The position numbers were made by a program, and so were the translations under genes. The notes beneath the pieces are model-generated. The model was not told the DNA's origin, made no database searches, and saw nothing but the letters and a program-made list of their open reading frames with translations. A stretch of DNA of 64,000 bases from Microlunatus parietis (GTDB lineage: Bacteria; Actinomycetota; Actinomycetes; Propionibacteriales; Propionibacteriaceae). Of the stretch, positions 1-64,000 are shown in pieces. Where the stretch lies: contig NZ_JACCBU010000001.1 in assembly GCF_013407955.1 (NCBI RefSeq), forward strand, positions 744,001 to 808,000. Direction: 5' to 3'. Position 1 is the stretch's first letter. Every line of letters begins with the position of its first letter.

Positions 1-65
1 ACGCGCCGGCCGTGATCGCTGCCGCCGAGCGGCTCAGCGAGGTCCTGCGCCGCAGCGGCGACTGA
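1..65 (+). CDS. C-terminal end of an unidentified protein (partial)
   Basis: An open frame enters from the left edge and ends at the TGA at 63-65. The visible tail reads AAERLSEVLRRSGD, a short charged helix-like end. Too little is present to assign a family. The stop lies just before the TGGTCTAA word at 76-83, so this gene probably ends upstream of the promoter of the next one. Confidence 0.45.
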   Translation, partial: APAVIAAAERLSEVLRRSGD

Positions 66-74
66 CCCGCGCGG

Positions 75-83
75 GTGGTCTAA
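75..83 (+). promoter_or_regulatory. GntR operator half-site (GTGGTCTAA)
   Basis: GTGGTCTAA lies 47 nt before the ATG at 130. The same TGGTCTAA core appears at 4791-4799 and, on the other strand, at 3936-3944, in front of the other two transcription units of this locus. The core resembles the DasR box (TGGTCTAGACCA), the known site of HutC-type GntR regulators of amino-sugar use. Binding by the regulator at 3968-4717 is inferred. Confidence 0.5.
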
Positions 84-129
84 CGGAGTTGGGTGTCGGG
101 CCCGGTCATGATCACTAGCGTGACGGTCC

Positions 130-2184
130 ATGAACCGGATTCTGTTCTGCTGCACGGCGGACAACGACCTGCTCCGAGCGCTGACCACCGATGATCACCG
201 TCCACTCCGGTACGAGGAGCCGGCCGCGGCCCTGGACGCCGCCGCGGCCGGTGACACGGTGCTGGTGCTCGCCGACGGCTATCCGGAGCGGCGGACCGCC
301 TTTCCGGCGGAGTTGATCACCGTCGCGGCCGAACGACAGGTGTCGGTGCTGGTCGAGTACCCGGCCGAGTTGCCCGGACTCGACGCCGAGCCGGAGACGG
401 CGACGCTGGAGCGGTTGGTGATCACCGATCCCCGGCTCGGCCCTGAGTTGGGTCTGCTCGCCGTGCACGCCTGTCGCTATCTGCCGACTCGGCAGCCGGA
501 CACGTTGCTCTGGCTGGCCCGGGTGGCCGGGTTCGACACCGCCGTGTACGGGCTGCCGGAGACGGCCTGGTCGGCCCTCTACCGGTTGCCGGACGCACCG
601 GTGCTGGTCGCCACCACCCAGCTGAGCCGCTTCGGCCGCGGCCGGTACGAGCCCCAGTCGGCCTGGATCGCCCTGTGGCAGGGAATCCTGCGCGTCCTGC
701 AGCCGACCGTCGAGCCGCCGGCGATGATCATCCCGGGAGCGGTGTCGCCACGGTTCGGCCGCGACGACGTGCTGCCCGCCGACGCGGCCGCCGCGGCCGT
801 GACGGCCTATCAGGACTGGCTGCGCCGGGCCGGCCTGCTGCTCGACCAAGATCAGGAACGCGCGGTGCGGGAGCTCATGATCACCGGCGAGGCGGTGCAG
901 CGGGACCGGCTGCCGGCCGGCACCGGCGACGGCAGCCACGGGGTCGCGGAGGGTTTCGAGTCGACGATCCAGCCGGACGGCAGCCAGCGGATCCGGCTGC
1001 CGCTGCGGGCGGACTGCATCGCCGAGACCGCGATGGTGCTGGCCCTCGACGACCGCGGGTCGGACGGTCCGCGGACCGCGCGCAACCTGATCGACTACCT
1101 CCGCGGACCGTCCGGGTTGTGCGGCGGCGAGCGGTCCGATCCGGCGCGGCCCTCGTACGGACTGATCGGTTGGGGCGTCGGGACGCCCGCCTGGGAGATC
1201 GCGAACTACGGCGATGACAACGCCCGGGTCATCCTGGCCTGGCTGCTCGCCGACGCGACGCTCGCCGTACCGGACGGGCACCGCGAGTTGATCAGCGCCA
1301 TCACCGCGAACTTCCGCACCACCGGCCGGACCGGCTTCCGCGGTGACCGGATCGATCAGCCGCAGCTCGCCGAGCACGGCTGGCAGCACTACTTCGACGG
1401 ATCCTTGATCAATCCCAGTGCGCACTTCGAGGCGTACCTGTGGGCCTGTTACCAGTGGGCCTACGCCGCGACCGGCTATCGGCCGTTCCTGGACCGGACC
1501 CGGACCGCCCTGATCACCATGATGGAACGCTTCCCGGGCGGCTGGCGGCGCAACGACGTCACCGAGCTGGCCCGGATCCTGCTGCCGCTGGCCTGGCAGC
1601 TCCGGGTCGAGCCGTCGGACCGGTTCCGCGGCTGGCTGTCCGACGTGATCGACGCCCTGCTCAGCCGCCAGGACGCGAGCGGCGGGATCGGTGAGGTCGA
1701 GGCGGGCGGCATCGATCTGTTCCAGGTCGCGCGCAGCAACGAGGAGTACGGCACCACCGAGGAGCCGATCATCTTCGCGACCGGCGACCCCGCCTCCGAC
1801 CAGCTCTACTCCTCCGGCTTCGCCCTGCTCGGCCTGTACGAGGCGGCCGGCGTCCTCGATGATCATCGAGTGACCGATGCCGCCGACCGGCTGGCGGACT
1901 ATCTGATCAGGATCCAACTTCGCAGCGACCGGCCGGAGCTGGACGGGAGCTGGTTCCGCTCCTTCGACTTCCGCCGCTGGGCCTACTGGGGCAGTTCCGG
2001 CGACGCCGGCTGGGGCGCCTGGTGCCTCGAGCTCGGCTGGGCGCCGGCCTGGGGCGTCACCGCCCTTGCCCTGCGCGACCGCGGCAGCACCCTCTGGGAC
2101 GAGCTGGCCAAGGTCCGGCCCGACCCGGCCGAGGCGCAGGACGTGATCAACTCGATGATCCCGGTCACCGTCGGGACTGAGTGA
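130..2184 (+). CDS. Unrecognised 684-aa protein, possible alpha/alpha-toroid carbohydrate-active enzyme
   Basis: I do not recognise the family. The first ~230 residues alternate strand-like and helix-like stretches (GDTVLVLADGYPERR near residue 40; a segment near 200 ending in MIIPGAV), like a Rossmann or amidotransferase-like beta-galactosidase domain. Residues ~270-660 are rich in Trp, Tyr and regularly spaced helices (HFEAYLWACYQWAYAATGY, DASGGIGEVEAGG, WAYWGSSGDAGWGAW), as in six-hairpin toroid glycosidases. No signal peptide is seen, so it is probably cytoplasmic. It faces nanE tail to tail and carries the locus operator word upstream, so a role in cleaving an imported amino-sugar oligosaccharide is inferred only. 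Confidence 0.6.
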   Translation: MNRILFCCTADNDLLRALTTDDHRPLRYEEPAAALDAAAAGDTVLVLADGYPERRTAFPAELITVAAERQVSVLVEYPAELPGLDAEPETATLERLVITDPRLGPELGLLAVHACRYLPTRQPDTLLWLARVAGFDTAVYGLPETAWSALYRLPDAPVLVATTQLSRFGRGRYEPQSAWIALWQGILRVLQPTVEPPAMIIPGAVSPRFGRDDVLPADAAAAAVTAYQDWLRRAGLLLDQDQERAVRELMITGEAVQRDRLPAGTGDGSHGVAEGFESTIQPDGSQRIRLPLRADCIAETAMVLALDDRGSDGPRTARNLIDYLRGPSGLCGGERSDPARPSYGLIGWGVGTPAWEIANYGDDNARVILAWLLADATLAVPDGHRELISAITANFRTTGRTGFRGDRIDQPQLAEHGWQHYFDGSLINPSAHFEAYLWACYQWAYAATGYRPFLDRTRTALITMMERFPGGWRRNDVTELARILLPLAWQLRVEPSDRFRGWLSDVIDALLSRQDASGGIGEVEAGGIDLFQVARSNEEYGTTEEPIIFATGDPASDQLYSSGFALLGLYEAAGVLDDHRVTDAADRLADYLIRIQLRSDRPELDGSWFRSFDFRRWAYWGSSGDAGWGAWCLELGWAPAWGVTALALRDRGSTLWDELAKVRPDPAEAQDVINSMIPVTVGTE

Positions 2185-2193
2185 TCGACCGGC

Positions 2194-4892: not shown

Positions 4893-5882
4893 GTGATCAG
4901 CGAAACCGGCCCCGAACTGGGCCGGCTCGGGGCGCGAGCCGCGGTGCCGGATCGGGCCGCCGCAACGTCCGGGCGGGTCCGACGTCGGCGCTGGCTGCTG
5001 GCCCGGCGGCACTGGCGCATGTATGCCTTCGTCCTGCCCGGATTGATCTTCTTCGTGATCTTCGCCTACGTGCCGATGCTGGGCAACGTCGCGGCGTTCC
5101 AGGACTACTCCCCGTTCCTCGGCTTCGCCAACAGCCCCTGGGTCGGGTTGGAGAACTTCCGGCGGTTGATCACCGACCCGGACGTCGGACACGCGGTGAT
5201 CAACACGTTGCAGTTGTCGCTGTTGCAGATCATCTTCGCCTTCCCGGCGCCGATCGCGCTGGCCCTGCTGCTGAACTCCTTGATCAGCACGCGGGTGAAG
5301 CGGTGGCTGCAGTCGATCGTCTATCTGCCGCACTTCATCTCCTGGGTGATCGTGATCTCGATCTGGCAGCAGATCCTCGGCGGCACCGGGATCGTCACCG
5401 ACGTGCTGAGCCGGGTCGGCATCGAGCACGTCAATCTGATGAGCAACCCGGAGACGTTCCACCTGCTGGTCACCTCGCAGGTGATCTGGAAGGACTCGGG
5501 CTGGGGCACGATCATCTTCTTCGCCGCCCTCACCACCATCCCGACCGAGCTGTACGAGAGCGCGGCGGTGGACGGTGCCGGCGCCTGGCGGCGGATCGTG
5601 CACGTCACCCTGCCCGGGCTGCTGCCGGTCATCCTGCTGCTGTTGATCTTGCGCCTCGGTGACGTGCTGACCGTCGGCTTCGAGCAGATCTACCTGCAGT
5701 ACAACACGGTCGGAGCGGCGGCGGCCGAGGTGCTGGACACGTTCGTCTACTTCCGCGGGGTGGTCGGCAGCGACTGGGGCTTCTCCACGGCGGTCGGCCT
5801 GGTCAAGGGCGTCGTCGGCACGCTGCTCGTCCTCGGCGCGAACGCCCTGTCCAAGCGGTTCGGCGCGGAGGGACTGTTCTGA
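4893..5882 (+). CDS. ABC transporter permease, LplB/YteP type
   Basis: 329-aa carbohydrate (CUT1) permease of the inner membrane. It starts with a basic cytoplasmic stretch, then six predicted transmembrane helices from YAFVLPGLIFFVIFAYVPML onward. The EAA loop for ATPase contact is seen as ESAAVDGAGAWRRIVHVTLP. AAGGAG at 4878-4883 sits 9 nt from the GTG at 4893, which is preferred over GTG 4887 and over the upstream ATG at 4809. Its stop overlaps the next ATG (TGATG). LplB-type systems import oligosaccharides and use a shared MsmX-like ATPase encoded elsewhere; none is present here. Confidence 0.85.
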   Translation: MISETGPELGRLGARAAVPDRAAATSGRVRRRRWLLARRHWRMYAFVLPGLIFFVIFAYVPMLGNVAAFQDYSPFLGFANSPWVGLENFRRLITDPDVGHAVINTLQLSLLQIIFAFPAPIALALLLNSLISTRVKRWLQSIVYLPHFISWVIVISIWQQILGGTGIVTDVLSRVGIEHVNLMSNPETFHLLVTSQVIWKDSGWGTIIFFAALTTIPTELYESAAVDGAGAWRRIVHVTLPGLLPVILLLLILRLGDVLTVGFEQIYLQYNTVGAAAAEVLDTFVYFRGVVGSDWGFSTAVGLVKGVVGTLLVLGANALSKRFGAEGLF

Positions 5883-28539: not shown

Positions 28540-30591
28540 ATGAGTTCTGCAGCGTTGCGCCCGCCGGCGGTCCCGTTGATCACCGTCGATCCGTACCTCA
28601 GCGTCTGGTCCATGGCGGACCGGCTGACCGACGCACCGACGAAGCACTGGACGTCGGCGGTGCAGCCGCTGGTCGGTGCGATCCGGATCGATGGCACGGC
28701 GCGGCGGGTGATCGGGCGGCACGGCGCGGAGGCGATGCCGCAGCTCGACGTGGCCGTGCATCCGACCCGGACGGTCTACCGGTTCGAGGAGCTCGGGGTA
28801 CGGCTCACGCTCAGCTTCATCACCCCGGCGCTGCCGGACGACCTGGTCCTGCTGTCCTGGCCGGTCACCTATCTCGAATTCGGCGTCGAGTCGGTCGACG
28901 GTGATGATCATGACGTCGAGCTGTTCTTCCAGCTGCCGGCCCAACTGAGCGTCGACAGCGGCACCCAGTCCGTGGTCGCGGTGCGGCCGGCGGTCGATGG
29001 GCTGATGGTCGCCGGCTTCGGCAACGCCGATCAGCGGGTGCTGAACCGGAGCGGTGATGATCTTCGGATCGACTGGGGCTGGGCCTACCTCGCCTTCGCC
29101 GACGGCCAGTTCGATCGCTCCGTGATGGTGCACGGCGGCGCGGCGCTGGACGCCTTCACCGCCGGTGAACCGCTGCCGGCCAGCGACTCGCTGGAGTTCC
29201 CGGCACCGGCCGGCCGCAAGGCTCCCGCGGCGGCCTGCACGGCCTCCCTCACCGTGGGCCGCGACCGTCCGCAGACCCGCCACCTGATCGTCGCCTACGA
29301 CGACCAGTTCTCGATCGAGTACCACCAGCGCAAGCTGCGGCCGTACTGGCGGGCGCAGGGCCTGACCGCCGAGCAGCTGTTGCGCCGGGCCGCCGCCGAA
29401 TTCGCGTCGATCAAGGCACGCTGCGTCGCCTTCGACGCCGAGGTCGAGGCCGACCTGGCCGCGGTCGGCGGTCCCGAGTACGCGGCCGTCGCCTCGCTCG
29501 CCTATCGGCAGTGCCTCGCGGCGCACAAACTGGTCCAGGACCACGACGGCACGCTGCTCTACTTCTCCAAGGAGAACTACTCCAACGGCTGCATCGGCAC
29601 CGTCGACGTGACCTACCCGTCGGCGCCGATGTTCCTGCTGTTCCGGCCCGAGTTGCTGATCGCCCAGCTGCTGCCGATCATGGACTACGCGGCGTCGCCG
29701 CGCTGGCGCTTCCGGTACGCGCCGCACGACCTCGGCACCTATCCGCTGGCCAACGGCCAGGTGTACGGCGGCGGCGAGGACACCGAGGATCACCAGATGC
29801 CGCTCGAGGAGTGCGGCAACATGTTGATCTTGATCGGGGCGCTCGGGACACTGACCGGCGACTGGAGCCTGGCCGAGCGGCACCCCGAGCTGCTGCGCAC
29901 CTGGGCCGACTACCTGGTCGAGCACGGGGCCTCGCCGGCCGAGCAGCTGTGCACCGACGACTTCGCCGGTCCGTTCGCCGACAACGTCAACCTGGCCGCG
30001 AAGGCGATCGTCGGCATCCGTTGCTACGCGGACATCTCGGCCGCGCTCGGCGATCCGGCCGCGGCGGCCGATTACCGGGCCACGGCCGAGTCCATGATCA
30101 AACAGTGGTACGCCGACGCCGACCTCGATGATCACACGGCGCTCGCGTTCGGCGCCCAGGACACCTGGAGCCAGAAGTACAACCTGGTCTGGGACCGGCT
30201 GCTCGGCCTCGACCTGGTGCCGCGCACGGTGATCGAGCGCGAGCTCGCGTACTACCGGACCAAGATCAACCCGTACGGCCTGCCGCTGGACAACCGGGAG
30301 AGCTACACCAAGTTCGACTGGTCGCTGTGGACCGCTGCGCTGATCGACGACGCCGACTTCCGGGCGATCATGATCAACGCGGCCTACCGCTGGCTGAACG
30401 AGACGCCGTCCCGGATCGCGCTGACCGACGTATACCACACCGACGACGGCCGGGTCGCCGACGTCGGCGGGCCGTTCCAAGCCAGGTCCGTGGTCGGCGG
30501 CGCGTTCGTCGAACTGCTCGCCGATCCGGAGCGCCGGCAGAAGTGGAACACCCGGGTCAGCGGTGCCGGCGGCGCCAGCGGTCGGGACTGA
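28540..30591 (+). CDS. Glutaminase-A-like protein (DUF5127/DUF4965/DUF1793)
   Basis: 683 aa. The layout fits the GtaA-like family: an N-terminal beta-sandwich (DUF5127, ~60-300; DPYLSVWSMADRLTDAPTKHW and NADQRVLNRSGDD), a middle domain (DUF4965, ~300-480; SIEYHQRKLRPYWRA, LYFSKENYSNGCIGTVDVTY), and a C-terminal helical toroid (DUF1793, ~480-660; QDTWSQKYNLVWDRLLGLDL, YGLPLDNRESYTKFDW). Fungal members have been called glutaminases; bacterial members may act on glycans. No signal peptide is seen. It is convergent with, and overlaps by 35 nt, an AraC regulator gene. Confidence 0.78.
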   Translation: MSSAALRPPAVPLITVDPYLSVWSMADRLTDAPTKHWTSAVQPLVGAIRIDGTARRVIGRHGAEAMPQLDVAVHPTRTVYRFEELGVRLTLSFITPALPDDLVLLSWPVTYLEFGVESVDGDDHDVELFFQLPAQLSVDSGTQSVVAVRPAVDGLMVAGFGNADQRVLNRSGDDLRIDWGWAYLAFADGQFDRSVMVHGGAALDAFTAGEPLPASDSLEFPAPAGRKAPAAACTASLTVGRDRPQTRHLIVAYDDQFSIEYHQRKLRPYWRAQGLTAEQLLRRAAAEFASIKARCVAFDAEVEADLAAVGGPEYAAVASLAYRQCLAAHKLVQDHDGTLLYFSKENYSNGCIGTVDVTYPSAPMFLLFRPELLIAQLLPIMDYAASPRWRFRYAPHDLGTYPLANGQVYGGGEDTEDHQMPLEECGNMLILIGALGTLTGDWSLAERHPELLRTWADYLVEHGASPAEQLCTDDFAGPFADNVNLAAKAIVGIRCYADISAALGDPAAAADYRATAESMIKQWYADADLDDHTALAFGAQDTWSQKYNLVWDRLLGLDLVPRTVIERELAYYRTKINPYGLPLDNRESYTKFDWSLWTAALIDDADFRAIMINAAYRWLNETPSRIALTDVYHTDDGRVADVGGPFQARSVVGGAFVELLADPERRQKWNTRVSGAGGASGRD

Positions 30592-36509: not shown

Positions 36510-38084
36510 ATGAGCGACGGGCTGTTCAGCAACGCGAAGGTCTTCACCGGCCGCGCCGAGGACGACTTCGCGACCGCGTTCCGGATCGAGGACGGCCGGG
36601 TCAGCTGGGTCGGCGACGCGGCCGAGGTGACGGGCGAGCCGAGCACCGACCTCGGCGGCCGAGTGGTGTTGCCCGGCCTGCTCGACGTCCACACCCATCC
36701 CGCGGTCATGGCCGCCCAGGCCGACGCGATCGACTGCCTGCCGCCGCGGGTGTCCTCGCTCGCCGCGTTGCTGGACCGGCTTCGCGAGCATCCGTCGTAC
36801 GGCAAGCCGGACACCTGGATCCTCGGCACCGGCTTCGACGACGCGCGATTCCCGGAGGGCCGGACACCGAACGCGGCCGACCTGGACCGCGTGTCGACCA
36901 CGCAGCCGGTGCTGGTCCGGCGCTGCGACGGCCACTCGGCCTCGTGCAACACCCGTGCCCTCGAACTCGCGGGCATCACCGCGGCGACGGCAGACCCGCC
37001 GGGCGCCCGCTTCGAACGCGACGCGGAGGGCAGCCCGACCGGCGTGCTGACCGAGATCGCCGCGGTCGATGCCGTCGCGGAGCGGATCCCGGAGCCCGAC
37101 ACTGCGACGATCGCGCGGCGGCTGGCCGACCTGAACGAGCACTTCCTCTCCCACGGCCTGACCGGCGTCTGCGATCTGCTGTCGAGTTTCGTACCGGACC
37201 CGCTGGCGGCCTTCCGGGCCGCGCGTGAGCTCGGCTTCCGGCCGCGGGTCGCGCTCTATCCCGGTTGGCAGCCCGAACTCGCCGACCTGACCGACGACGA
37301 TCGCACCGGCCCGATCCGGATCGCCGGCATCAAGGTGTTCGCCGACGGCGCCTTCTCGAACCGGACGGCCTGGGTCGAGGACCCGTACCCCGACTCCTGC
37401 GAGCACGGCCTCCGCAGCATCGGCGACGACGAACTGCGCGAGGCCGCCGGCTGGGCCCGCCGCAACCGGGTCCAACTCGCCGTCCACGCGATGGGCGACC
37501 GGGCCCTGAACCGCGTCGTCGACCTGCTCGGCGACGACGAGCCGTGGCTGGACGGCCTTCCGTCGGTACGGATCGAGCACGCGACCCTGGTCGCGCCGGA
37601 GTTGGTGGATCGACTGACCCGGGCCCGGGTCCGGTTCGGCATCGCCACGCACACGATCTTCCTGTTCGCCGAGACCTCGGCCTACCGGAACAACCTCGGG
37701 CCGGACCAGGCGCGAGTCGCGTACCCGATCCGGGCGCTCTACGACTCCGACCTGCCGCTGGCGCTGACTTCGGACCGCCCGGCCACCGCCTGGGACGACG
37801 CCGACGACGTGTTCTGCTCCGTCGCCGCGGCCGTACGCCGGATCGCCCACGACGGCACCGATATCGGCCGCCCCGAGGCCGTCACCGTGCCGCAGGCCCT
37901 ACTGCTCTACACCGGCCGGGCCCGGACGCTTGCCGATCTTGGTCCGGTCGGAGTGCTGGAGCCGGGTGCCGCCGGGGACTTCGTGATCCTGGACCGCGAC
38001 GTGTTCACGGTGCCGGCCGAGGAACTCGCGGAGGTACGGGTCGGCGAGACCTGGATCGCCGGCGAGCGCTGCTGGCCGCGTTGA
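36510..38084 (+). CDS. Amidohydrolase, YtcJ-like
   Basis: 524 aa, amidohydrolase-3 family. LFSNAKVFTGRAEDDFATAF opens the beta domain, GRVVLPGLLDVHTHPAVMAA carries the HxH metal site, WILGTGFDDARFPEGRTPNA and VLVRRCDGHSASCNTRALEL are family signatures, and a Lys in IKVFADGAF is the likely carbamylated or ligand residue. No signal peptide. GGGAG lies 6 nt before ATG 36510. The substrate is unknown. It follows the methyltransferase by 64 nt; two TCCATGATCA direct repeats lie in that gap. Confidence 0.8.
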   Translation: MSDGLFSNAKVFTGRAEDDFATAFRIEDGRVSWVGDAAEVTGEPSTDLGGRVVLPGLLDVHTHPAVMAAQADAIDCLPPRVSSLAALLDRLREHPSYGKPDTWILGTGFDDARFPEGRTPNAADLDRVSTTQPVLVRRCDGHSASCNTRALELAGITAATADPPGARFERDAEGSPTGVLTEIAAVDAVAERIPEPDTATIARRLADLNEHFLSHGLTGVCDLLSSFVPDPLAAFRAARELGFRPRVALYPGWQPELADLTDDDRTGPIRIAGIKVFADGAFSNRTAWVEDPYPDSCEHGLRSIGDDELREAAGWARRNRVQLAVHAMGDRALNRVVDLLGDDEPWLDGLPSVRIEHATLVAPELVDRLTRARVRFGIATHTIFLFAETSAYRNNLGPDQARVAYPIRALYDSDLPLALTSDRPATAWDDADDVFCSVAAAVRRIAHDGTDIGRPEAVTVPQALLLYTGRARTLADLGPVGVLEPGAAGDFVILDRDVFTVPAEELAEVRVGETWIAGERCWPR

Positions 38085-38109
38085 TCACCCATCGGCTTGT
38101 CCGCCCGTG

Positions 38110-39703: not shown

Positions 39704-39721
39704 GGACCTACTCTCGTGATC

Positions 39722-40777
39722 ATGCGCTACCGCAAGCTGGGCCGGACCGGCCTCGAGGTCTCCGAGTACGCCCTCGGCACAATGATGTTCGGCTCGGCCG
39801 GCAATCCCGATCACGAGGCGTGCGCCCGGATCCTGCACGCCGCCCTCGACCGCGGCGTCAATCTGATCGACACCGCCGACATGTACTCGGCCGGCGAATC
39901 CGAGGAGATCGTCGGCAAGGCACTCAAGGGACATCGCGACGACGTCGTGCTGGCGACCAAGGGTCACTATCCGCTCGCCGAGGGTCCGAACCGGAGCGGC
40001 AATTCCCGCCGCCACCTGACCCGGGCCGTGGAGGCGAGCCTGCGCCGGCTGGACACTGATCACGTCGACCTCTACCAGATCCACCGGCCGGACTGGGACA
40101 CCGACCTGACCGAGACGCTGGCCACCCTGACCGACCTGCAGCAGGCCGGCAAGATCGGCGTCTTCGGGTGTTCGGTCTACCCCGCGTTCGAGCTCGTCGA
40201 GGCGCAGCGGATCGCCGACCGGCACGGGTTGCGGCCGTTCCGTACCGAGCAGCCGCCGTACAACCTGCTGGCCCGCGGGATCGAGCGGGACGTGCTGGTC
40301 GTCACCGAGCGGCAGGGCATGGGCGTGCTGACCTGGAGCCCGCTGGCCTGGGGCTTCCTCACCGGCCGCTACCGGCGCGGCGACACCACGACCGAGCCGG
40401 GAGCGCGGGCCAGGCTGCGGCCGGAGTGGTTCGACCCGGCCGACCCGGTGACCGCGCGCAAGCTCGACGCCGTCGAGGAGTTGATCAAGGTCGCCGCGGA
40501 CCTGGGCAGTACCCTGCCGGCCCTCGCGGCAGCCTTCCCGCTGAGCCATCGCGCGGTCAGTGCGGTGCTGCTCGGTCCCCGTACCGAAGATCAACTCACG
40601 TCGATCCTGGACGCGCCGGCCCGGCTCGACGACGCTGCGCTGGACCGGATCGACGAGATCGTCCCGCCCGGCACGAATGTCTACGAGCCGACCGCGCCCG
40701 CACCGCCACCCTGGCTGGCCGACCCGTCCCGGCGGCGGTACGTCGAGCCGCCGAAGCCCAACGCTCCCTGGCGTTGA
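39722..40777 (+). CDS. Aldo/keto reductase
   Basis: 351 aa, NADP(H)-dependent TIM-barrel oxidoreductase. The catalytic tetrad is visible: Asp and Tyr in NLIDTADMYSAGESE, Lys in VVLATKGHYP, His in LYQIHRPDWD. Cofactor segment AVSAVLLGPRTEDQL is near the C-terminus. ATG 39722 is chosen; there is no good ribosome-binding site and the predicted promoter suggests a leaderless or very short-leader mRNA. The stop TGA and the stop of the convergent AraC gene together form TGATCA. Confidence 0.85.
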   Translation: MRYRKLGRTGLEVSEYALGTMMFGSAGNPDHEACARILHAALDRGVNLIDTADMYSAGESEEIVGKALKGHRDDVVLATKGHYPLAEGPNRSGNSRRHLTRAVEASLRRLDTDHVDLYQIHRPDWDTDLTETLATLTDLQQAGKIGVFGCSVYPAFELVEAQRIADRHGLRPFRTEQPPYNLLARGIERDVLVVTERQGMGVLTWSPLAWGFLTGRYRRGDTTTEPGARARLRPEWFDPADPVTARKLDAVEELIKVAADLGSTLPALAAAFPLSHRAVSAVLLGPRTEDQLTSILDAPARLDDAALDRIDEIVPPGTNVYEPTAPAPPPWLADPSRRRYVEPPKPNAPWR

Positions 40778-41617
40778 TCATGGTCGGTACAGCCGCCGGT
40801 AGTCGCTGGGCGTGATCGAGCTGACCTGACGGAAGGCGCGGCTGAAGTAGGACTGGTCCATCCCGACGTCGGCGGCGATCTCCTCGATCGGCCGGTCGGT
40901 GTCGACCAGCTCCCGCTGCGCGTGTTCGATCCGGGCCCGCTTCACGTACTGCTTGGGCGACAGGCCGAATTCGATCTTGAACCGGCGGGCGAACTCGGCC
41001 GGCGGCAGGCCCGCCTCGGCGGCCAGCCGGTCCAGCGTCAGTGACTCGGCGAGCGCACCGTCGACGAACCGGACCACCCGCCGGAAGGCGCCGGCTCCCT
41101 CGGGCTGCGGTCCCCCGGCCAGCCGCACGGAGCCGGGCGGCGCGCTCTCCAGGTAGTGCCCGAACAGTTCCGACAGGGCGGCCCGCAGGCGCAGCGGGGT
41201 GGCCAGCGTCGGCGGGTCCCGGTCGATCGCCGCCACCCGCTCGAAGAGTCCGGCGGCAATCTTGGGATCGCGGCTCGGCACCACGTACGGCAGCTCGAGC
41301 ACCTCGCCGAGATCGCTGTCGCCGATCAGGGCGGAGAAATGCAGCCAGTGCTTGAGGTACGTGTCGTCGCTGACCGTTCCGTACGCCACCGGACGATCGG
41401 CCGGCAGATAGACGAGATCACCCGGGCCCGGTGACAGCTCCGTGTCACCGACCCGCAGCAGACCCTCGCCGGACAAGATCAGATAGAGCCTGCTGTACGG
41501 ATCCGGCTGGCTCGGCCGGGCCCAGGAACGCGGCACCCGGGTGATCCGGCTGGCCACGACGAGGTCGAGCCGGAGCCGGTCGAGCTGGGCACGGACGACC
41601 TCGTCGACGCCGCTCAC
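40778..41617 (-). CDS. AraC-family transcriptional regulator
   Basis: 279 aa. Cupin sensor at ~40-110 (LYLILSGEGLLRVGDTELSP, GDLVYLPADRPVAYGT) and a C-terminal double HTH (~180-275: LDRLAEAEAGLPPAEFARRF-like segment, IEEIAADVGMDQSYFSRAFR). It overlaps the stop of the PL6 lyase gene by ATGA, so it is co-transcribed and probably regulates that lyase in response to released sugars. Confidence 0.85.
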   Translation of the reverse strand: MSGVDEVVRAQLDRLRLDLVVASRITRVPRSWARPSQPDPYSRLYLILSGEGLLRVGDTELSPGPGDLVYLPADRPVAYGTVSDDTYLKHWLHFSALIGDSDLGEVLELPYVVPSRDPKIAAGLFERVAAIDRDPPTLATPLRLRAALSELFGHYLESAPPGSVRLAGGPQPEGAGAFRRVVRFVDGALAESLTLDRLAAEAGLPPAEFARRFKIEFGLSPKQYVKRARIEHAQRELVDTDRPIEEIAADVGMDQSYFSRAFRQVSSITPSDYRRLYRP

Positions 41618-43200: not shown

Positions 43201-43210
43201 GGCCGTCGGG

Positions 43211-44456: not shown

Positions 44457-44894
44457 ATGGCAGAGCTCTCACCGCGGCTGCGGCAGATCGTCGACGCCCT
44501 CCCGCTGACCCCGGGCCTGCGGGTGCTCGAGATCGGCGGCGGGCCCGGTGCCGCCGCCCGCGCCGTCGCCGAACGGCTGACCGGCGGCGGGACGATCCTC
44601 ATGATCGACCGCTCGGCGACGGCGATCGAGCAGGCCAGCAACGGTTCCGCGGACCTCATCGCCGCCGGGGTCCTCCGGCTGCGCCGGGTCGCCGTCGAGG
44701 ACTTCGAACTCGAGCCCGGCGAGCCGCAGTACGATCTCGCCTTCGCGGTCCGGGTCGGCGCCCTGGACGGCCGGCATCCGGTCGCCGGCGTGGCTGCGCG
44801 GGCTCGGCTCGCGGCCGCGTTGGCGCCGCACGGCCGGCTCTTCATCGACGGTGGCGATCCGCTCCGCGAGGTGGATCTGCGGTCCGGTTCCTGA
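44457..44894 (+). CDS. Small SAM-dependent methyltransferase
   Basis: 145 aa. Motif I LRVLEIGGGPGAAARAVA (~21-38), motif II acidic residue in ILMIDRSATAI. Short for the family, since the C-terminal strands after LAPHGRLFIDGG are abbreviated. AAAGGA lies 8 nt before the ATG. The stop TGA shares a TGATCA with the stop of the convergent FAD-Rieske gene. Confidence 0.65.
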   Translation: MAELSPRLRQIVDALPLTPGLRVLEIGGGPGAAARAVAERLTGGGTILMIDRSATAIEQASNGSADLIAAGVLRLRRVAVEDFELEPGEPQYDLAFAVRVGALDGRHPVAGVAARARLAAALAPHGRLFIDGGDPLREVDLRSGS

Positions 44895-46397
44895 TCATTC
44901 CGCCGGTTCGTGCCGGGCCAGCGGCTCGACCGCGGGCCCCTCCAGCACCGCGCCGTCGGCGTCGAAGCGCGAGCCGTGGCACCGGCAGTCCCAACTCGTG
45001 TCGGCCTGATTCCAGTGCAGCGGGCAGCCGAGGTGGGTGCAGGTCGGGGTGACAGCGTGCAGGGTTCCGCCGGGATCGCGGTAACCGCCCAGCCGGTTGC
45101 CGTCGAGCATGATCAGACCGCCCCGGCCCGGTGCCAGGTCCGCCGGATCGCCCGCCGCACCGAACCGACCGCCGACGAACTCCGTACCGACCGAGAGGTT
45201 GTCCTTGATCAACCTGCCGACCGACGCGGCGTCACCGATCCGGGTGGCGTCGAAGATCGACTGCCACGGGCGGCCCGGCCGGCCGGCGATCAGGTCCGCC
45301 AGCACCAGGGCGGCCGCGGTGCCGCTGCTGAGGCCCCATTTGGCGAAGCCGGTCGCGGTCAGAATCCGGCTGCTGAAGGGCGTCCGGCCGACGTACGGCA
45401 ATCGGTCCGGCGTCCGGTAATCCTGCGCCGCCCACCGGTGATCGACCGAGACGACGTCGAAGTTCGCCCGGGCCCAGGTCTCCAGGTCGCGATAGCCGGC
45501 TTCGGTGTCGGCCTCCGCACCGGGTTCATGATCATTCCCGACCACGATCAGCCCGTCCGATCGCCACGGCCGCAGTGATCGGGTCGGGGTGTCGTCCACC
45601 GAGATCGTCATCGCCTCGGGAGCCGGACCACGCAGCGTCACCGCGAGGGCGTACGACCGCGTCGGCCGGGTCCGGGCGAAGTAGCCGCCGACCAGGCCGG
45701 GCGGCAGCAGCGTGGCGAGCACGGCCCGGTCCGCGTGCACCCGTACCCCGTTCACCGCGGTGAGCCGCACTCCGTCGTTGCCACGTTTGTCGAACTCCCC
45801 GATCCTGGTCCCGTCGAAGATCATTCCGCCGGCGGCCGACACCGCACCGGCCAATCCGGCCAGATAACGGCCGGGATGGATCAGAAGTTGATCATCAAAC
45901 CGGATCGCCGCCGAGACCGGGAACGGCAGCGGAACGTCCGTGGTCCCGGTCGCCGGCAGGCCGGCCTGCTGCGCCGCCAACACCTCCGCGGCGATCCGCT
46001 CCCGGCCCTCGGGCCGCACCGCGTAGGCGAAGGCCGGCAGCCGAGAATCCTCGCAGTCGACCGGGAGCTGCCCGGCCAGTTCGGCGACCTTCGCCAGTCC
46101 CTCTTGGTTGGCTTCGGCATAGCCGCGGGCGACGTCCCCGCCGTGCCGGTCGGCCAGGTCGGCATAGATCAGCCCGTGCTGCGAGGTCACCTTCCCGGTG
46201 GTCCGGCCGCTGGTGCCGGCGCCGATCCCGGCGGCCTCGAGCACCGCGACCCGGGCACCGTCGCGAGCGACGAGCAGCGCCGTCGTCAGTCCGACCAGTC
46301 CGCCGCCGACCACCGCAACGTCGACCTCGAGATCGGCGGCGAGCGCCGGGTGCCGCGGCAGTTCGGCCGTCGCCAGCCACACGCTGCCCTGCTCCAT
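44895..46397 (-). CDS. FAD-dependent oxidoreductase fused to a Rieske [2Fe-2S] domain
   Basis: 500 aa. N-terminal DAO-type flavin domain (VDVAVVGGGLVGLTTALLVA at ~25-44, ATGFAKWGLSSGTAAALVLA near 350). C-terminal Rieske domain (~415-500): CTHLGCPLHW ... WDCRCHGSRFDADG, with both CxH and CxxH iron ligands. This architecture is known for proteins of the Rieske-DAO type; substrates are not established. It follows the PRC-barrel gene by 16 nt and is probably transcribed from the same GTTT/GGGTAC promoter, a stress-type context. Confidence 0.83.
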   Translation of the reverse strand: MEQGSVWLATAELPRHPALAADLEVDVAVVGGGLVGLTTALLVARDGARVAVLEAAGIGAGTSGRTTGKVTSQHGLIYADLADRHGGDVARGYAEANQEGLAKVAELAGQLPVDCEDSRLPAFAYAVRPEGRERIAAEVLAAQQAGLPATGTTDVPLPFPVSAAIRFDDQLLIHPGRYLAGLAGAVSAAGGMIFDGTRIGEFDKRGNDGVRLTAVNGVRVHADRAVLATLLPPGLVGGYFARTRPTRSYALAVTLRGPAPEAMTISVDDTPTRSLRPWRSDGLIVVGNDHEPGAEADTEAGYRDLETWARANFDVVSVDHRWAAQDYRTPDRLPYVGRTPFSSRILTATGFAKWGLSSGTAAALVLADLIAGRPGRPWQSIFDATRIGDAASVGRLIKDNLSVGTEFVGGRFGAAGDPADLAPGRGGLIMLDGNRLGGYRDPGGTLHAVTPTCTHLGCPLHWNQADTSWDCRCHGSRFDADGAVLEGPAVEPLARHEPAE

Positions 46398-50102: not shown

Positions 50103-51672
50103 CGCCGTGATCATCGGCTCGGGGCCGAACGGCCTGGTCGCCGCGAACCTGCTCGCCGACCGGGGCTGGAACGTCCTGGTGCTGGAGGCGCAGCCCGAGC
50201 CGGGCGGCGCGGTCCGGTCCGACACCGACGTCCAGCCCGGCTATGTCCACGACACGTTCAGCAGCTTCTATCCGCTGGCCGCCGTCTCGCCCGCCCTGGG
50301 TGGCCTCGGGCTCGAGGCGTTCGGGCTGGACTGGGTGCACGCGCCCGCCGTGATCGGCCATCCGCTCCCCGATGGCGACTGGGCCATCCTGCACCGCGAT
50401 CCCGAGCTGACCGCGACGGACCTCGATCATGATCATCCTGGCGACGGCGACGCCTGGCTCGCGCTGTACGAACGCTGGCGCGCGGCCGGGACTCAGCTCA
50501 CGACGGCGCTGCTGCAGCCGTTCCCGCCGCTCGGGCCAGGGCTCGCGCTGCTGGCCCGGTTGCGCCGCGCCGGCGGGCTCGGCTTCGTCCGGCTGCTGCT
50601 CGAACCGGCCAGCACGCTGGCCGAACGTCGCTTCGGCGGCGAGCGGGCCCGGCTGCTGCTGACCGGCCTGGCCGCCCATGCCGACATCCCGCTGGCGGCG
50701 TCCGGCTCCGGCCTGATGGGCCTCCTGCTCGCCATGGTCGGCCACACCCACGGGTTCCCGGTCCCCCGCGGCGGCGCCGGCTCGCTGACCCGCAGCCTGA
50801 CCGAGCGGCTGGCGACCCGGGGCGGTGAACTGCGATGCGACTCCCGGGTCGACTCCGTCCTGCTGGACCGCGGCCGGGCGGTCGGAGTGCGTACCGCCGA
50901 CGGGGAACGGATCCGCACCCGGGCGGTGATCGCGGACGTGCCCGCCACCAGCCTGTACGGCGACCTGATCGCGGCCGAGGATCTGCCGGCCCGGGTCCGG
51001 GCGGCGATGGCCGTGTTCGACCCGGACCCGGCGACGTTCAAGATCGACTGGGCGCTGTCCGGGCCGGTACCGTGGCGGACTCCGCCGGTGGTGGCGCCCG
51101 GCACGGTGCACCTGGCCGACTCGACCGACGACCTGGCCCTGGCGGTGGCCCAGGTCGCGCATCACCGGGTCCCGGCACGGCCCTTCCTGCTGGTCGGCCA
51201 GATGGCGATCACCGATCCGAGCCGGGCCCCGGCCGGTGCCGAGTCGTTGTGGGCCTACACCCATCTGCCGCGGGAGATCCACGCCGACGAGGCCGGCGTG
51301 ATCAAGGGCGGCCGGCTGTCCGCCGATGATCAAGAACGGTTCGCCGACCGGGTGCAGGATCGGCTGCGCCGCTACGCGCCCGACTTCGACAGTACGGTCC
51401 TCGCCCGCCGCATCCTCGGACCGGCCGAGCTCGAGGAGCGGAACGAGGGGCTGCCCGACGGTGCTCTCGGCGGCGGGACGGCCGGCCTGCACCAGCAGTT
51501 GATCTTCCGGCCGATCCCGGGCACCGGCCGGCCGACCACCCCGTTCCGCGGGCTCTACCTGGCCTCGTCGTCGGCGCACCCGGGCGGCGCGGTGCACGGC
51601 GCCTGCGGCGCGAACGCGGCGCGCGCCGCCCTCACGGCGGCCGCCCTCGGCCGGCTCAGCCGGTCGGCCTGA
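50095..51672 (+). CDS. Phytoene-desaturase-like NAD(P)/FAD-dependent oxidoreductase
   Basis: 525 aa. FAD motif AVIIGSGPNGLVAANLLADR at the N-terminus then VLEAQPEPGGAVRSD; C-terminal FAD-binding signature YLASSSAHPGGAVHGACGAN. This is the CrtI-like/PYROXD2-like fold, but no carotenoid synthase genes are near. GTG 50095 has GGGAGG 6 nt upstream and overlaps the SDR stop. The stop forms TGATCA with that of the SRPBCC gene. Confidence 0.83.
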   Translation: MRDAVIIGSGPNGLVAANLLADRGWNVLVLEAQPEPGGAVRSDTDVQPGYVHDTFSSFYPLAAVSPALGGLGLEAFGLDWVHAPAVIGHPLPDGDWAILHRDPELTATDLDHDHPGDGDAWLALYERWRAAGTQLTTALLQPFPPLGPGLALLARLRRAGGLGFVRLLLEPASTLAERRFGGERARLLLTGLAAHADIPLAASGSGLMGLLLAMVGHTHGFPVPRGGAGSLTRSLTERLATRGGELRCDSRVDSVLLDRGRAVGVRTADGERIRTRAVIADVPATSLYGDLIAAEDLPARVRAAMAVFDPDPATFKIDWALSGPVPWRTPPVVAPGTVHLADSTDDLALAVAQVAHHRVPARPFLLVGQMAITDPSRAPAGAESLWAYTHLPREIHADEAGVIKGGRLSADDQERFADRVQDRLRRYAPDFDSTVLARRILGPAELEERNEGLPDGALGGGTAGLHQQLIFRPIPGTGRPTTPFRGLYLASSSAHPGGAVHGACGANAARAALTAAALGRLSRSA

Positions 51673-52158
51673 TCAGGCCTGGTCCTCGTACGTCCCCGCG
51701 GCGCCCTCGGCCAGGAACCGGAGCCGGCGCAGCGCCTCCCGGTTGCGGACCCGCAACAGGCCCCGGCGTACCGGAGCGAGCACCGCCAGGCCCGGTCCGG
51801 CGGCGACGTCCTCGTCGATCGAGACCACACAGCCGTCGGGGATCGGTTCGAGGGTGATCACGACGGTGGCCTCACCGACCGGCCAGCCGCGGGCCCGCAG
51901 CACCAGCCGGCGTCCGTACTGCCATTCCAGCGCCGTCGTGGTGTCGTTGATCAACAGCGGCCAGACGCCGAACGAGTGGTGCAGTTCGGACCGCGGCAGC
52001 GGCCAGTCCTCGTCGACCTCACGCATCCGGGACGCGCCGACCACCCAGCTCGGATACAGCCAGCCGTTGCCGAGCACGGCGAAGACCTCGGCCGCCGACG
52101 CCGTCATCCGCAGGCTGACCGTGTTGCCCCCAGGGCGGTGCCCGGTCCGGGATTCCAT
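51673..52158 (-). CDS. SRPBCC-family protein
   Basis: 161 aa. Helix-grip pattern: VSLRMTASAAEVFAVLGNGW, WVVGASRMREVDEDWPLPRS, ATVVITLEPIPDGCVVSIDE. It probably binds a hydrophobic ligand; function unknown. GAGGAG lies just upstream of ATG 52158, and a GTTT/GGGTAC promoter 32-56 nt upstream. It is back to back with the haem-oxygenase-like gene. Confidence 0.75.
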   Translation of the reverse strand: MESRTGHRPGGNTVSLRMTASAAEVFAVLGNGWLYPSWVVGASRMREVDEDWPLPRSELHHSFGVWPLLINDTTTALEWQYGRRLVLRARGWPVGEATVVITLEPIPDGCVVSIDEDVAAGPGLAVLAPVRRGLLRVRNREALRRLRFLAEGAAGTYEDQA

Positions 52159-53341: not shown

Positions 53342-53610
53342 TCAGCTGCCGGATGATCAACGCCGCCGGGACACCGCTGCGGTGCGTCGGCGACGAGACT
53401 CTGGACCTGGAACCGTGCCCGGAGGGCCCGGTGCTGGTCCGCGGCGCCACGATGATCATCGACGAGGACGATCAGGCGCACCCGGTACTCCGGCCCGTCG
53501 TCGCGGTCTGTCGCTGCGGGACCTCGACCCAGCCGCCGTGGTGCGACGGGATGCACAAGCTGGTCCAGCGCCGGCAACGAGCCGCCGGGGCGGACCAGAC
53601 CGAACGATGA
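53338..53610 (+). CDS. CDGSH-type iron-sulphur protein
   Basis: 90 aa. The CDGSH signature is CRCGTSTQPPWCDGMHK (C-x-C-x9-C-D-G-x-H), providing three Cys and one His for a [2Fe-2S] cluster. The N-terminal half (GPVLVRGATMIID) is a short beta unit. It overlaps the haem-oxygenase-like gene by ATGA, a pairing that suggests an electron carrier for it. A hairpin made of two TGATCA-containing arms follows the stop. Confidence 0.85.
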   Translation: MISCRMINAAGTPLRCVGDETLDLEPCPEGPVLVRGATMIIDEDDQAHPVLRPVVAVCRCGTSTQPPWCDGMHKLVQRRQRAAGADQTER

Positions 53611-53628
53611 TCATCACGAGTGATCATC
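53606..53628. terminator. Small hairpin GATGATCA-N7-TGATCATC over the CDGSH gene stop
   Basis: 8-bp perfect arms, each containing TGATCA, with a 7-nt loop; the TGA stop (53608-53610) is in the left arm. No T tract follows. It could be a weak terminator or an effect of the general TGATCA excess. Confidence 0.4.
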
Positions 53629-57684: not shown

Positions 57685-58706
57685 GCTCCCCCGTGACCAA
57701 CGACGATCAACACCTGCTCGAGGTCGACGACCTGACCGTCGCGTTCGGTGACGGCCCCGGCTCCGTGCGGGCGGTCGAGAACGTCAGCCTCAGCGTCGGT
57801 GCCGGCGAGATCTACGCCCTGGTCGGCGAGTCCGGCTGCGGCAAGTCGACGCTGGCGTACTCGCTGCTGCAGATCGTGCCGCCGCCGGGCCAGATCACCG
57901 GCGGCACGGTACGGTTCCGCGGGGCGAGCACCACCACGATGTCGAAGCGGGAACTGAACGCCCTCCGCGGCGCCGAGCTCGCGATGGTGTTCCAGGGCGC
58001 GATGAACGCGTTCAACCCGGTGCTGACGATCGGCACCCAGGTGGACCACATCCTGCAGGCCCATCCCGAGGTGTTCGCCGACCCGAAGGACGGCCGGGAC
58101 TACTTCCGGCATCTGCTCGACCTGGTCCAACTGCCGGCCGACCGGATCTGGAAGTCGTACGAGAGCCAGCTGTCCGGCGGCATGAAGCAGCGGGTGGCGA
58201 TCGCCGTCGCGCTGCTGCTGCGGCCGTCGGTGGTGATCTTGGACGAGCCGACGACCGCGCTGGACGTGCTCAACCAGCGGTTGGTGATCGACATCCTCAA
58301 GGATCTGCACCGCACGCTCGGGGTGACGATCATCTTCGTCACCCACGACCTCGCCGTGGTCGCGGAGCTCGCCACCCGGGTCGCGGTCATGTACGCCGGC
58401 CGCCTGGTGGAGTCGGGCACCGTCGAGGAGATCTTCAAGGCGGGCCGCCGGCACCCCTACGTCGAGGCGTTGATCAACGCGATCCCGAGCGTGCTGGACG
58501 CCGGGCTCCGGGTCCGGCCGATCGGCGGCGCGGTGCCGAACCTCGCCGAACTGCCGGGCGGCTGCCGGTTCGCGCCGCGCTGTGCCCGGGCCGAGGACCT
58601 GTGCCACGAGACTGAGCCGCCGCTGCTCGGCGATGATCATGGACATCTGGTCGCCTGTCACGTCGTCAACCGCAGGCCCGAACTGGTGGAGGTGTCGAAG
58701 GCGTGA
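57681..58706 (+). CDS. Oligopeptide-type ABC transporter ATPase, DppD-like
   Basis: 341 aa. Walker A GESGCGKSTLAY, signature LSGGMKQR, Walker B VVILDEPTTALD, H-loop IFVTHDLAVV. The C-terminal Dpp/Opp extension contains CRFAPRCARAEDLC, a Cys cluster that in this family can bind a [4Fe-4S] cluster. GTG start overlaps the permease stop by 4 nt. Confidence 0.9.
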   Translation: MSSPVTNDDQHLLEVDDLTVAFGDGPGSVRAVENVSLSVGAGEIYALVGESGCGKSTLAYSLLQIVPPPGQITGGTVRFRGASTTTMSKRELNALRGAELAMVFQGAMNAFNPVLTIGTQVDHILQAHPEVFADPKDGRDYFRHLLDLVQLPADRIWKSYESQLSGGMKQRVAIAVALLLRPSVVILDEPTTALDVLNQRLVIDILKDLHRTLGVTIIFVTHDLAVVAELATRVAVMYAGRLVESGTVEEIFKAGRRHPYVEALINAIPSVLDAGLRVRPIGGAVPNLAELPGGCRFAPRCARAEDLCHETEPPLLGDDHGHLVACHVVNRRPELVEVSKA

Positions 58707-60669: not shown

Positions 60670-60690
60670 ATCGAGAGGTGGAGGCAGATC

Positions 60691-61370: not shown

Positions 61371-61571
61371 TCATCAGTTCCTGAGCCGGTCGAGCATCCA
61401 GTGGACGCTCATGGCAACGATCTTGCGCAGAACCTGCCCTTTCCGTCCGCTCGATGATCATTTCGGCATGGCGACGTCGTGGCGGGCCGTTGGTCCCGAC
61501 TCCGCTCCGTTCTGAACCTTCGAGTGCCCGAGCCGCGAGCGGCCGTGCCCTGGTGACTCCCCCGCCAACGG

Positions 61572-62978: not shown

Positions 62979-63036
62979 TCGTACTCTCTCCGGCTGTGCG
63001 AAGGGTGAAAGGGACGTCTTCAGTCTTGGTGGTGCA

Positions 63037-63060
63037 TTCACTAAAGTCAACGCATGTGAA
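63037..63060. promoter_or_regulatory. TetR-type operator candidate TTCAC-N14-GTGAA
   Basis: Inverted repeat in the only AT-rich stretch of the 109-nt divergent region between the MFS and TetR genes. TTGACT on the minus strand overlaps it (candidate -35 for the MFS gene). Confidence 0.4.
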
Positions 63061-63087
63061 GTTTAACGAACGGCGTACCCTGTCGTC

Positions 63088-63774
63088 GTGCCGAGCCAGC
63101 GACGCCGCCCCGCGACCAGGAAGGGACGCCCGGTCCTGACCCGTGCCGCCATCGCTGAGAAGGCTCTCGAACTGGCCGGAGTGCAGGGCTTCCGTGCCGT
63201 CACGATGCGCGCCCTGGCCGGTGAGCTGGGCGTGACCGTACGCGCGCTGTACAACTACGTCGACGACCGCCAGCAGGTGATCGATCTCGCGGTCGGCCTG
63301 ATGATCGAGGCCTGGGAGCCGCCCACGCTCGACCCGGAAGCTTGGGAGCAGTCCATCGCCGATTACGCCGGCTCGCTGCGCCGTCTCTATCGACGGTGGC
63401 CCCGGGCGCTGCTGATCTCGATCGAGGAGGACGCACCCCCGACGGCGGTCCACCCGAATCGCCTGATCAACCTGGAGCGCCTGCTACGACTCCTGTGCGA
63501 CGTCGGGCTCAGCCTGCCGGCCGCACTGGAGGTCCACCGACACCTCGCCCTGCAACTGCTGTCCTTCGCCCTACTGGTCGACTATCCAGCCGACCAGGCC
63601 GGCACGGCGGGCGGCTCGCCACTCGTCCCCCAGGCCTGGCTCGAGGCCCGGGCAGACCTCGACCTCCCGACGCTGCGCGAGGCTGCGGCCCTGCCCGCTC
63701 CGACGCCGGACGAGCAGTTCGAGAGCCTCATCGCCACGGTCACCGCTCAGATCCGGGGCCGGCTCACCGAGTGA
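63088..63774 (+). CDS. TetR-family transcriptional regulator
   Basis: 228 aa. N-terminal HTH at ~18-64 (RAAIAEKALELAGVQGFRAV, TMRALAGELGVTVRALYNYV). Helical ligand-binding C-terminus. It probably represses the divergent drug-efflux gene. GTG 63088 start has no strong ribosome-binding site. Confidence 0.83.
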   Translation: MPSQRRRPATRKGRPVLTRAAIAEKALELAGVQGFRAVTMRALAGELGVTVRALYNYVDDRQQVIDLAVGLMIEAWEPPTLDPEAWEQSIADYAGSLRRLYRRWPRALLISIEEDAPPTAVHPNRLINLERLLRLLCDVGLSLPAALEVHRHLALQLLSFALLVDYPADQAGTAGGSPLVPQAWLEARADLDLPTLREAAALPAPTPDEQFESLIATVTAQIRGRLTE

Positions 63775-64000
63775 TCAGGCCGACGGCGGCCCCCGGCAGG
63801 CTGAGCACCAGCGCCACCCGGCCATCGCAAGGGCAGAGTCGGGTGCAGCCGGCCAGGGTGATCGCGATCGCGTCGGCCCGGAGGGCACGCAGGACCGCTG
63901 ATCGGAACTGCCGCAACCAGCGAGCGGCGTCGTCGGGCCGGCACGCCTTGCACACCGTGAGGACCGCATCCTGCCGCGGCTGCCAGGAGAATCCGGCCGT
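63764..64000 (-). CDS. Cys-rich ferredoxin-like or DUF1636-like protein (partial, 3' end only)
   Basis: The frame is open to the right edge, so the start is outside. The visible ~78 residues include DAVLTVCKACRPDDAARWLR, a helix, then AITLAGCTRLCPCDGRVALV and LSLPG. The CxxC ... CxxxCxC spacing resembles thioredoxin-like [2Fe-2S] proteins and DUF1636 metal-binding proteins. Stop overlaps the convergent TetR end by 11 nt. Other short frames here on the same strand are less protein-like. Confidence 0.5.
   Translation of the reverse strand, partial: TAGFSWQPRQDAVLTVCKACRPDDAARWLRQFRSAVLRALRADAIAITLAGCTRLCPCDGRVALVLSLPGAAVGLITR

Follow-up and report, generated by a model that had tools for sequence, protein, structure and literature searches.

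The hexanucleotide TGATCA is over-represented along the whole chromosome of Microlunatus parietis, and the pressure that maintains it acts on nucleic acid, not on codons. We analysed a window of 64,000 nucleotides (positions 744,001-808,000 of the single 7,240,126-bp contig of this genome, G000; GC 70.1%) together with the remainder of the genome, its relatives and control genomes, all designated by G handles. Our own called genes were used throughout; they came from a home-made gene caller whose start sites are unverified and which missed at least one window gene (53347-53611). TGATCA occurs 165 times in the window, where 3.9 copies are expected from base composition, and 13,409 times in the whole genome (7.24 Mb, about 1.9 per kb), compared with 47 copies of its backward spelling. 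Twenty 20-kb samples taken along the chromosome each held 12-53 sites, which makes the word chromosome-wide. Palindromes of the same composition were far rarer in the window (AGATCT 8, TCATGA 29, ACATGT 2, TGTACA 6 and AGTACT 5). An initial annotation, made from the letters of the window, had counted 22 sites in the first 6.0 kb and 11 in 55.7-59.7 kb, and both counts are exact. TGATCA is the common outcome in three codon frames, at start codons and in the bases that follow stops, which is why we attribute the excess to a property of the nucleic acid. The unit is a word longer than the hexamer, about 8 bp, with TTGATCAA as its best form. The pressure is strong and independent of spacing in some lineages of one family, where it is graded between relatives, and it is weaker or absent in the sampled relatives.

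The count is not reproduced by codon usage. Codons were permuted synonymously within each called gene, with 300 runs for the window. The window genes contain 136 TGATCA, compared with 76.6 after shuffling (sd 4.2, maximum 89 in 300; z 14.1), and the next most enriched palindrome was CGGCCG (z 5.6). Across 444 kb of G000, 718 sites were found in genes and 342-350 were expected. The shuffle is conservative, since it retains rare codons already raised by TGATCA. The initial annotation had named two results that would count against its reading, a codon-preserving shuffle matching the observed number and equal enrichment of other 6-mers; both tests were run and neither result was obtained. A maximum-order Markov null (165 observed, 109 expected) was set aside as a poor control, because TGATCA inflates its own sub-words. 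Plain GATC was dropped as the unit. It was the top 4-mer after the shuffle in G000, G006 and G011, with an excess of 1.51-1.66 in high genomes (defined below), but all five control genomes used for codon tests, which belong to other families, showed a similar excess (1.26-1.50), so that GATC alone is not the special unit.

To place the excess among genomes, TGATCA density was compared across G000 and 115 relatives (sizes rounded). Eleven of the 116 genomes carried 0.89-1.88 copies per kb and the other 105 at most 0.7. The eleven, hereafter the high genomes, are G000, G001, G004, G006, G007, G011, G012, G015, G021, G023 and G046; all belong to the family of G000 and represent 11 of its 69 genomes, G000 included. 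Density peaked in G004 (1.88 per kb). A further 197 genomes sampled from the phylum all lay at or below about 0.6 per kb. The longer form TTGATCAA occurred at 51-154 copies per Mb in the eleven high genomes (984 copies or 136 per Mb in G000), at 14-24 in G002, G009, G016 and G019, at 5-7 in G069 and G083, and at 1.6-3.0 in the low genus members G003, G010 and G018; G086, from another family, had 19 per Mb. Three small genomes of the family (G026, G031 and G044) contained 28-49 TTGATCAA, but the reversed control reached 12-27 in them. GC content does not determine the level, since G023 (0.713) is high and G009, G019 and G069 (0.668-0.678) are not. On an rpoB protein tree (25 rows from 26 genomes searched, with G015 omitted because its rpoB match was a fragment), the high label required 5 changes, at least 2 of them forced by well-supported branches; one old origin followed by losses may fit this tree. 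In two genomes from other genera of the family TGATCA was nearly absent (34 copies in 2.3 Mb of G032 and 28 in 1.5 Mb of G066), compared with 552 and 365 copies in their same-genus relatives G053 and G026; this scarcity perhaps resembles restriction avoidance of a word that is saturated elsewhere in the family.

Site retention was followed between aligned high genomes. The window and G004 are 81% identical over 19.5 kb aligned, and there TGATCA was retained better than any other palindrome with enough copies (32 sites shared, out of 45 in each). The commonest counterparts of unshared sites were CGATCA (7), AGATCA (3) and TGACCA (3). In the rpo region, TGATCA was the best kept in 3 of 5 pairs of high genomes with enough copies; in the pairs G000-G004 and G006-G007 it came second to GACGTC or GTCGAC.

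Codon choice in G000 changes sharply wherever it can form the word. Before ATC-A, Leu is encoded by TTG in 149 of 227 cases, compared with 865 of 12,996 elsewhere, and Val by GTG in 207 of 210, compared with 3,900 of 9,801; for Asp preceded by T and followed by CA, GAT is used in 164 of 168 cases (1,204 of 7,861 elsewhere). We defined an opening as Leu or Val, then Ile, then Thr, Asn, Lys, Ile or Met, where a synonymous choice can form TGATCA. G000 fills 396 of its 401 openings, and the window 78 of 79, with Asp after T and before His or Gln being GAT in 25 of 25 cases. Filling was 126/134, 137/143, 54/56 and 61/63 in other high samples and 60/62 in G004; 24/25 and 27/29 in mid genomes; 48/60, 33/42 and 16/26 in low genomes; 22/31, 9/13, 11/16, 29/46 and 4/9 in controls; and 1/7, 17/27 and 9/9 in three further genera of the family. 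Openings with another site within 50 bp were filled as completely as the rest (76/77 in G000), and the sites are clustered (coefficient of variation of spacing 1.39, compared with 1.10 for random placing). Regular spacing and selection for density, both looked for, find no support in this clustering and equal filling.

The preference extends to the bases on either side of the hexamer. In G000, TTGATCA occurred 396 times against 122 expected from the shuffle (3.24-fold) and CTGATCA 147 times against 146 (1.00-fold); the corresponding ratios were 3.19 and 1.40 in G006 and 2.67 and 1.24 in G011. Among the flanked words in G000 genes, TTGATCAA was the most favoured (61 observed, 6.9 expected), and the others included GTGATCAA (109 and 28.2), ATGATCAA (130 and 37.4) and CTGATCAA (35 and 43.0). 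The left flank was tested at Leu (TTG or CTG before ATC-A) and the right flank at Gln (CAA or CAG after T-GAT), which are mirror positions in different codon frames. The natural logarithms of the odds ratios were 3.00 for left T over C and 3.35 for right A over G in G000, and 1.94 and 2.42 in G006, G011 and G007 combined; at His (CAT over CAC) the right-flank values were 2.83 and 1.75. Elsewhere the left-flank value was 0.98 in mid genomes and 0.30 in controls, with right-flank cases numbering 1 to 7, too few to use. The mirror flanks are thus preferred about equally, as would be expected if a dimeric protein bound the duplex. The initial annotation had proposed a highly iterated palindrome maintained at synonymous sites and not explained by codon bias; the genome-wide excess beyond the shuffle bears this out, but the unit is longer than stated there and the sites are not only synonymous.

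The word also forms at the two ends of genes and in the choice of amino acids. In seven high samples, 101 of 839 TGA stops were followed by TCA, compared with 15 of 394 in controls (five genomes and 16 named loci; p 1e-6); among low and mid genus members the figure was 5 of 473 (p 4e-15). Where the next same-strand gene lay at least 30 bp away, the counts were 26/320 in high samples, 2/215 in controls that included three further family genomes, and 2/185 in low and mid genus members. TCA was the commonest triplet after TGA in the high samples; it was outside the ten commonest after TAG (103 stops) and followed 2 of 38 TAA. By our own start calls, 76 of 991 genes in high genomes had their start codon inside TGATCA; the controls gave 6 of 414 and the low and mid members 3 of 594. 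Tripeptides of the class [LVM]I[TNKIM] occurred at 2.93 times their compositional expectation in G000, at 1.86-2.18 in G006, G011, G007 and G023, and at 0.66-1.75 in ten others. The ratio of [LV]I[TNK] to its mirror [TNK]I[LV] was 2.84, 2.83 and 2.85 in G000, G006 and G007 (control ratios 1.61, 1.68 and 1.39) and 1.80 and 1.79 in G011 and G023 (control ratios 1.46 and 1.70); the control genome G149 also gave 1.94 against 1.00. The tripeptide shift is clear in three of the five high samples. In ordinary genes, the homologue also had Ile at 36 of 133 positions where Ile lay inside TGATCA, compared with 438 of 1,139 for other Ile (p 0.010), and in the conserved rpo region there was no such deficit (540/658 and 6,309/7,958). 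For nonsynonymous drift towards TGATCA, ordinary genes provide support and the conserved rpo region provides none.

Non-coding gaps were split by type, because the order-2 ratio of observed to expected in unsplit gaps was near that of G000 in the controls (4.26 and 4.54; G006, 2.21). Same-strand gaps of 10-700 bp contained 71 sites in 51,777 nt in high samples and 15 in 48,738 nt in controls, a ratio of 4.5 that is inflated because such gaps contain uncalled genes, for example 53347-53611. Within the first 36 nt past a stop, 15 sites were found in 8,618 nt of same-strand gaps of at least 70 bp (controls, 4 in 7,688), and with a convergent neighbour 2 in 3,348 nt (controls, 2 in 2,418). Divergent gaps showed no excess, with 20 sites in 35,344 nt compared with 8 in 16,756 nt of controls (ratio 1.19, p 0.84), and within the high samples they were poorer in TGATCA than same-strand gaps (p 2e-4). 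TGATCA is favoured at starts, across stops and just behind genes, and not detectably in divergent gaps.

Genomes were searched for methyltransferases of five families and for the repair endonuclease Vsr. A D12-class (Dam-type, PF02086) match was present in G000 (C1:248,503-249,213). In the 32 genomes searched for this family, G000 was the only one of 20 genus members with a match and G023 the only other high genome; the high genomes G004, G006, G007, G011 and G012 had none. PF01555, PF00145, PF07669 and PF02384 matched in 8, 11, 12 and 14 of 26 genomes, and none of these families covered all high genomes. G004 (97% completeness) had no D12, PF01555, PF07669 or PF02384 match and one 162-base match to PF00145 (C5); G001, G015 and G021 are drafts of 82-93% completeness. 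The orphan GATC-type methyltransferase that the initial annotation had suggested looking for lacks support, in that none of the five families matches every high genome. Seven of 26 genomes had a Vsr (PF03852) match, and G007 was the only high genome of the seven. A C5 methyltransferase match lies 14 kb past the D12 match in G000 (263295-263648), in a frame that holds one TGA.

The reading we put first, tentatively and at somewhat less than an even chance, is that of a chromosome-wide word resembling the cyanobacterial highly iterated palindrome HIP1, which would be read as duplex by a symmetric protein. An abundant homodimeric DNA-binding protein would recognise the dyad-symmetric word of about 8 bp in double-stranded DNA, and this protein would not be a methyltransferase of the common classes. 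Sites within gene bodies would each be favoured by weak selection, and those in promoter gaps would not; a gene-body nucleoid factor or a factor against spurious transcription would match this pattern, as a candidate class only. A more specific version, a methylation-free gene-body mark in which one actinobacterial family would have an abundant homodimeric protein reading more than 10,000 TTGATCAA-like words, we regard as doubtful. If it held, the sites would be favoured one by one, strongly enough to fix rare codons, the bases following stops and, in some proteins, the second residue, with promoter gaps unenriched.

Several observations weigh against a selected, protein-read word. The binding protein for TGATCA is hypothetical, and selection would have to act on about 13,000 separate sites, many of them less than 50 bp apart, which asks a lot; repair bias accounts more simply for the independence from spacing. 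Plain TGATCA is only about twofold over the codon shuffle, and the low genome G003 reaches 1.96-fold (53 sites, 27 expected). Near-saturation of openings extends outside the high set, so that high and low genomes differ by degree, and the low group also shows a left-flank preference (TTG 6/63 compared with 140/8,030, ln odds ratio 1.85). In G000, CTGATCAG departs from the flank rule (12 observed, 4.8 expected). The deficit in promoter gaps was drawn from 20 sites, with gene calls that miss some genes, and convergent gaps of more than 60 bp are also low (5 in 12,374 nt; 3 in 4,931 nt of controls), which a gene-body reading does not clearly predict.

The main rival, a real possibility though a minority one in our estimate, is that biased mutation, repair or gene conversion turns near-matches into TGATCA and protects them, leaving the word as a functionless by-product, much like the ratchet that Elhai put forward for HIP1. 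The filling of openings without regard to spacing (396/401) and the spill of the excess into amino-acid choice, seen in the tripeptide class and in the less often shared Ile (36/133 compared with 438/1,139), both favour repair; so does the finding that the single-step neighbours CGATCA, AGATCA and TGACCA are the commonest counterparts of unshared sites. The lack of an excess in divergent gaps favours selection, since a repair bias should act in divergent promoter gaps as well and these do not exceed controls. In addition, C-to-T change alone cannot yield GTG from GTC at Val (GTG 207/210), only one of the seven genomes with Vsr is high, and Ile inside TGATCA is not less conserved in the rpo region. 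The data do not decide between selection and biased repair.

A solitary methyltransferase that marks GATC or TGATCA for repair, replication or gene control, an idea already put forward for cyanobacterial HIP1, appears unlikely. TGATCA does contain a GATC core with dyad symmetry, G000 carries one D12-class gene, and abundant palindromes of cyanobacteria are tied to specific methyltransferases by Elhai (PMC4390886). The D12 class nevertheless has no match in the other 19 genus members, high ones included, the four other families searched are also patchy, and G004, the densest genome, lacks all but the short C5 match.

Somewhat less probable still is an effect at the RNA level, in which UGAUCA in messenger RNA, or a codon context, would be favoured. 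The enriched places are transcribed (genes, starts, stops and same-strand gaps) and divergent gaps are not enriched, as such an effect would have it; but the occurrence in two codon frames, the stops joined to non-coding TCA and the mirror flanks indicate a symmetric duplex, and the same-strand gap contrast is inflated by uncalled genes. Anti-Shine-Dalgarno pairing (GGTGATC) was rejected by inference, TTGATCA and CAA flanks being the best, and off-frame stop codons were rejected likewise, since any TGA would serve and flanks would be irrelevant.

A DNA uptake word, or a self-recognition signal for DNA exchange, is very unlikely. The density of 1.9 per kb and the lineage-limited saturation resemble those of uptake words, but known uptake words lack palindromic symmetry and mostly lie near gene ends, whereas TGATCA is symmetric and found throughout genes. 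That GC content, codon bias and amino-acid usage create the excess as an artefact is scarcely credible, and as a full explanation it is already refuted. TGATCA arises often in any proteome through the xTG ATC A frame, the shuffle alone gives 76.6 sites in window genes and the low members G003 and G010 have GC near 0.735, but shuffles never reach the count, high and low genomes do not sort by GC, and the flank and stop-codon effects lie outside codon usage.

Table 1. TGATCA in the window, by place and for selected sites (window coordinates).
Position	Feature	Detail
1..64000	TGATCA set	165 sites, 12 of them within TTGATCAA
	Sites inside called genes	111 in frame xTG ATC Axx, 25 in frame xxT GAT CAx
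	Sites elsewhere	9 spanning gene ends; 20 in called gaps, of which 3 fall in the missed CDGSH gene
314..319	TGATCA with rare Leu codon TTG	GAG TTG ATC ACC
1289..1294	TGATCA with TTG	GAG TTG ATC AGC
5167..5172	TGATCA with TTG	CGG TTG ATC ACC
28905..28910	TGATCA, other codon frame	GAT GAT CAT
38082..38087	TGA stop + TCA	called gene 36510-38084, +
40775..40780	both stops of convergent pair	called genes 39716-40777, + / 40778-41617, -
44892..44897	both stops of convergent pair	called genes 44457-44894, + / 44895-46397, -
50430..50435	TGATCA	CAT GAT CAT (within GAT CAT GAT CAT)
51670..51675	both stops of convergent pair	called genes 50095-51672, + / 51673-52107, -
58471..58476	TGATCA	GCG TTG ATC AAC
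63772..63777	TGA stop + TCA	called gene 63181-63774, +

The individual sites of the window are collected in Table 1. The six codon examples that the initial annotation had picked out are all correct, with positions shifted by 0-5 bases. Its remark that the word is rare in a lower-GC gene held for the called gene at 32367-33464, which has one site; the interval 31.5-33.5 kb has three, not the two reported. The stretch at 17.57-19.06 kb is empty as described, which is weak evidence at 75.5% GC with about four sites expected at the window rate. Sites between genes do occur, though some of those in called gaps belong to a small uncalled gene for a CDGSH iron-binding protein (53347-53611, +), in which TGATCA lies at 53354, 53453 and 53608, the last one at the gene end. 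At each of three convergent called pairs (40775, 44892 and 51670), the two TGA stops are one common TGATCA.

Other words also departed from expectation. GGTACC (2 observed, 16.7 expected from the synonymous shuffle) and CACGTG (1 and 8.1) are strongly avoided in the window in a restriction-like manner. A second word family, CGTACC/CCGTACCG, reached 129 against 40 expected in G000 genes, and CGTACG was enriched in G006 gaps (order-2 observed/expected 5.6). CAGATA/CAGATAG stood 2-4 fold over order-1 expectation in G000, G006 and G011 and was rare in G003 and G010. C runs (CCCC and longer) were strongly avoided after the shuffle in high and low genomes alike (G000, G006, G011, G003 and G010).

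Very short patch repair by Vsr makes oligonucleotide biases in E. coli and illustrates how repair may favour one short word at the expense of its neighbours, but Vsr presence (7 of 26 genomes, one of them high) does not track TGATCA. The restriction enzyme BclI recognises TGATCA, and restriction predicts avoidance where we find a strong excess. No prior report of a TGATCA excess in actinobacteria was found in a search that covered few subscription journals and does not show that none exists. These genomes offer relatives at high, middle and low levels outside the cyanobacteria, in which selection and repair are separable by experiment, and they caution against reading codon usage, the context of start codons and perhaps protein sequence in these lineages without regard to a DNA word that partly shapes them. 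In the HIP1 paper, the question of why some bacteria fill their genomes with one short palindrome was still open (PMC4390886).

The closest parallels are HIP1 (GCGATCGC) and the other highly iterated palindromes of cyanobacteria (Elhai 2015, PMC4390886). That paper describes a mismatch-repair ratchet proposed for HIP1, some HIP1 genomes without a CGATCG enzyme, and a modest over-representation of TGATCA itself, called weak, in marine Synechococcus and Prochlorococcus (group C1) (PMC4390886). The C1 word is the same hexamer, but at the 67-71% GC of the present genomes the openings are close to saturation, with flank and codon effects measured, and nothing shown here connects the two. TGATCA has the abundance of the highly iterated palindromes, far above chance and codon expectation. 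A methyltransferase, usual though not universal in that class, was not found in all carriers among the five families searched. By our own gene calls, the non-coding excess lies behind stops and in same-strand gaps, with none in divergent or convergent gaps. TGATCA differs from HIP1 as a different word in an actinobacterial family, flanked by T on the left and A on the right, for which no searched methyltransferase family is common to all carriers and no divergent-gap excess is detected. Like HIP1, it is a short palindrome with a GATC core that occurs at about 1-2 copies per kb, genome-wide, within genes and limited to certain lineages.

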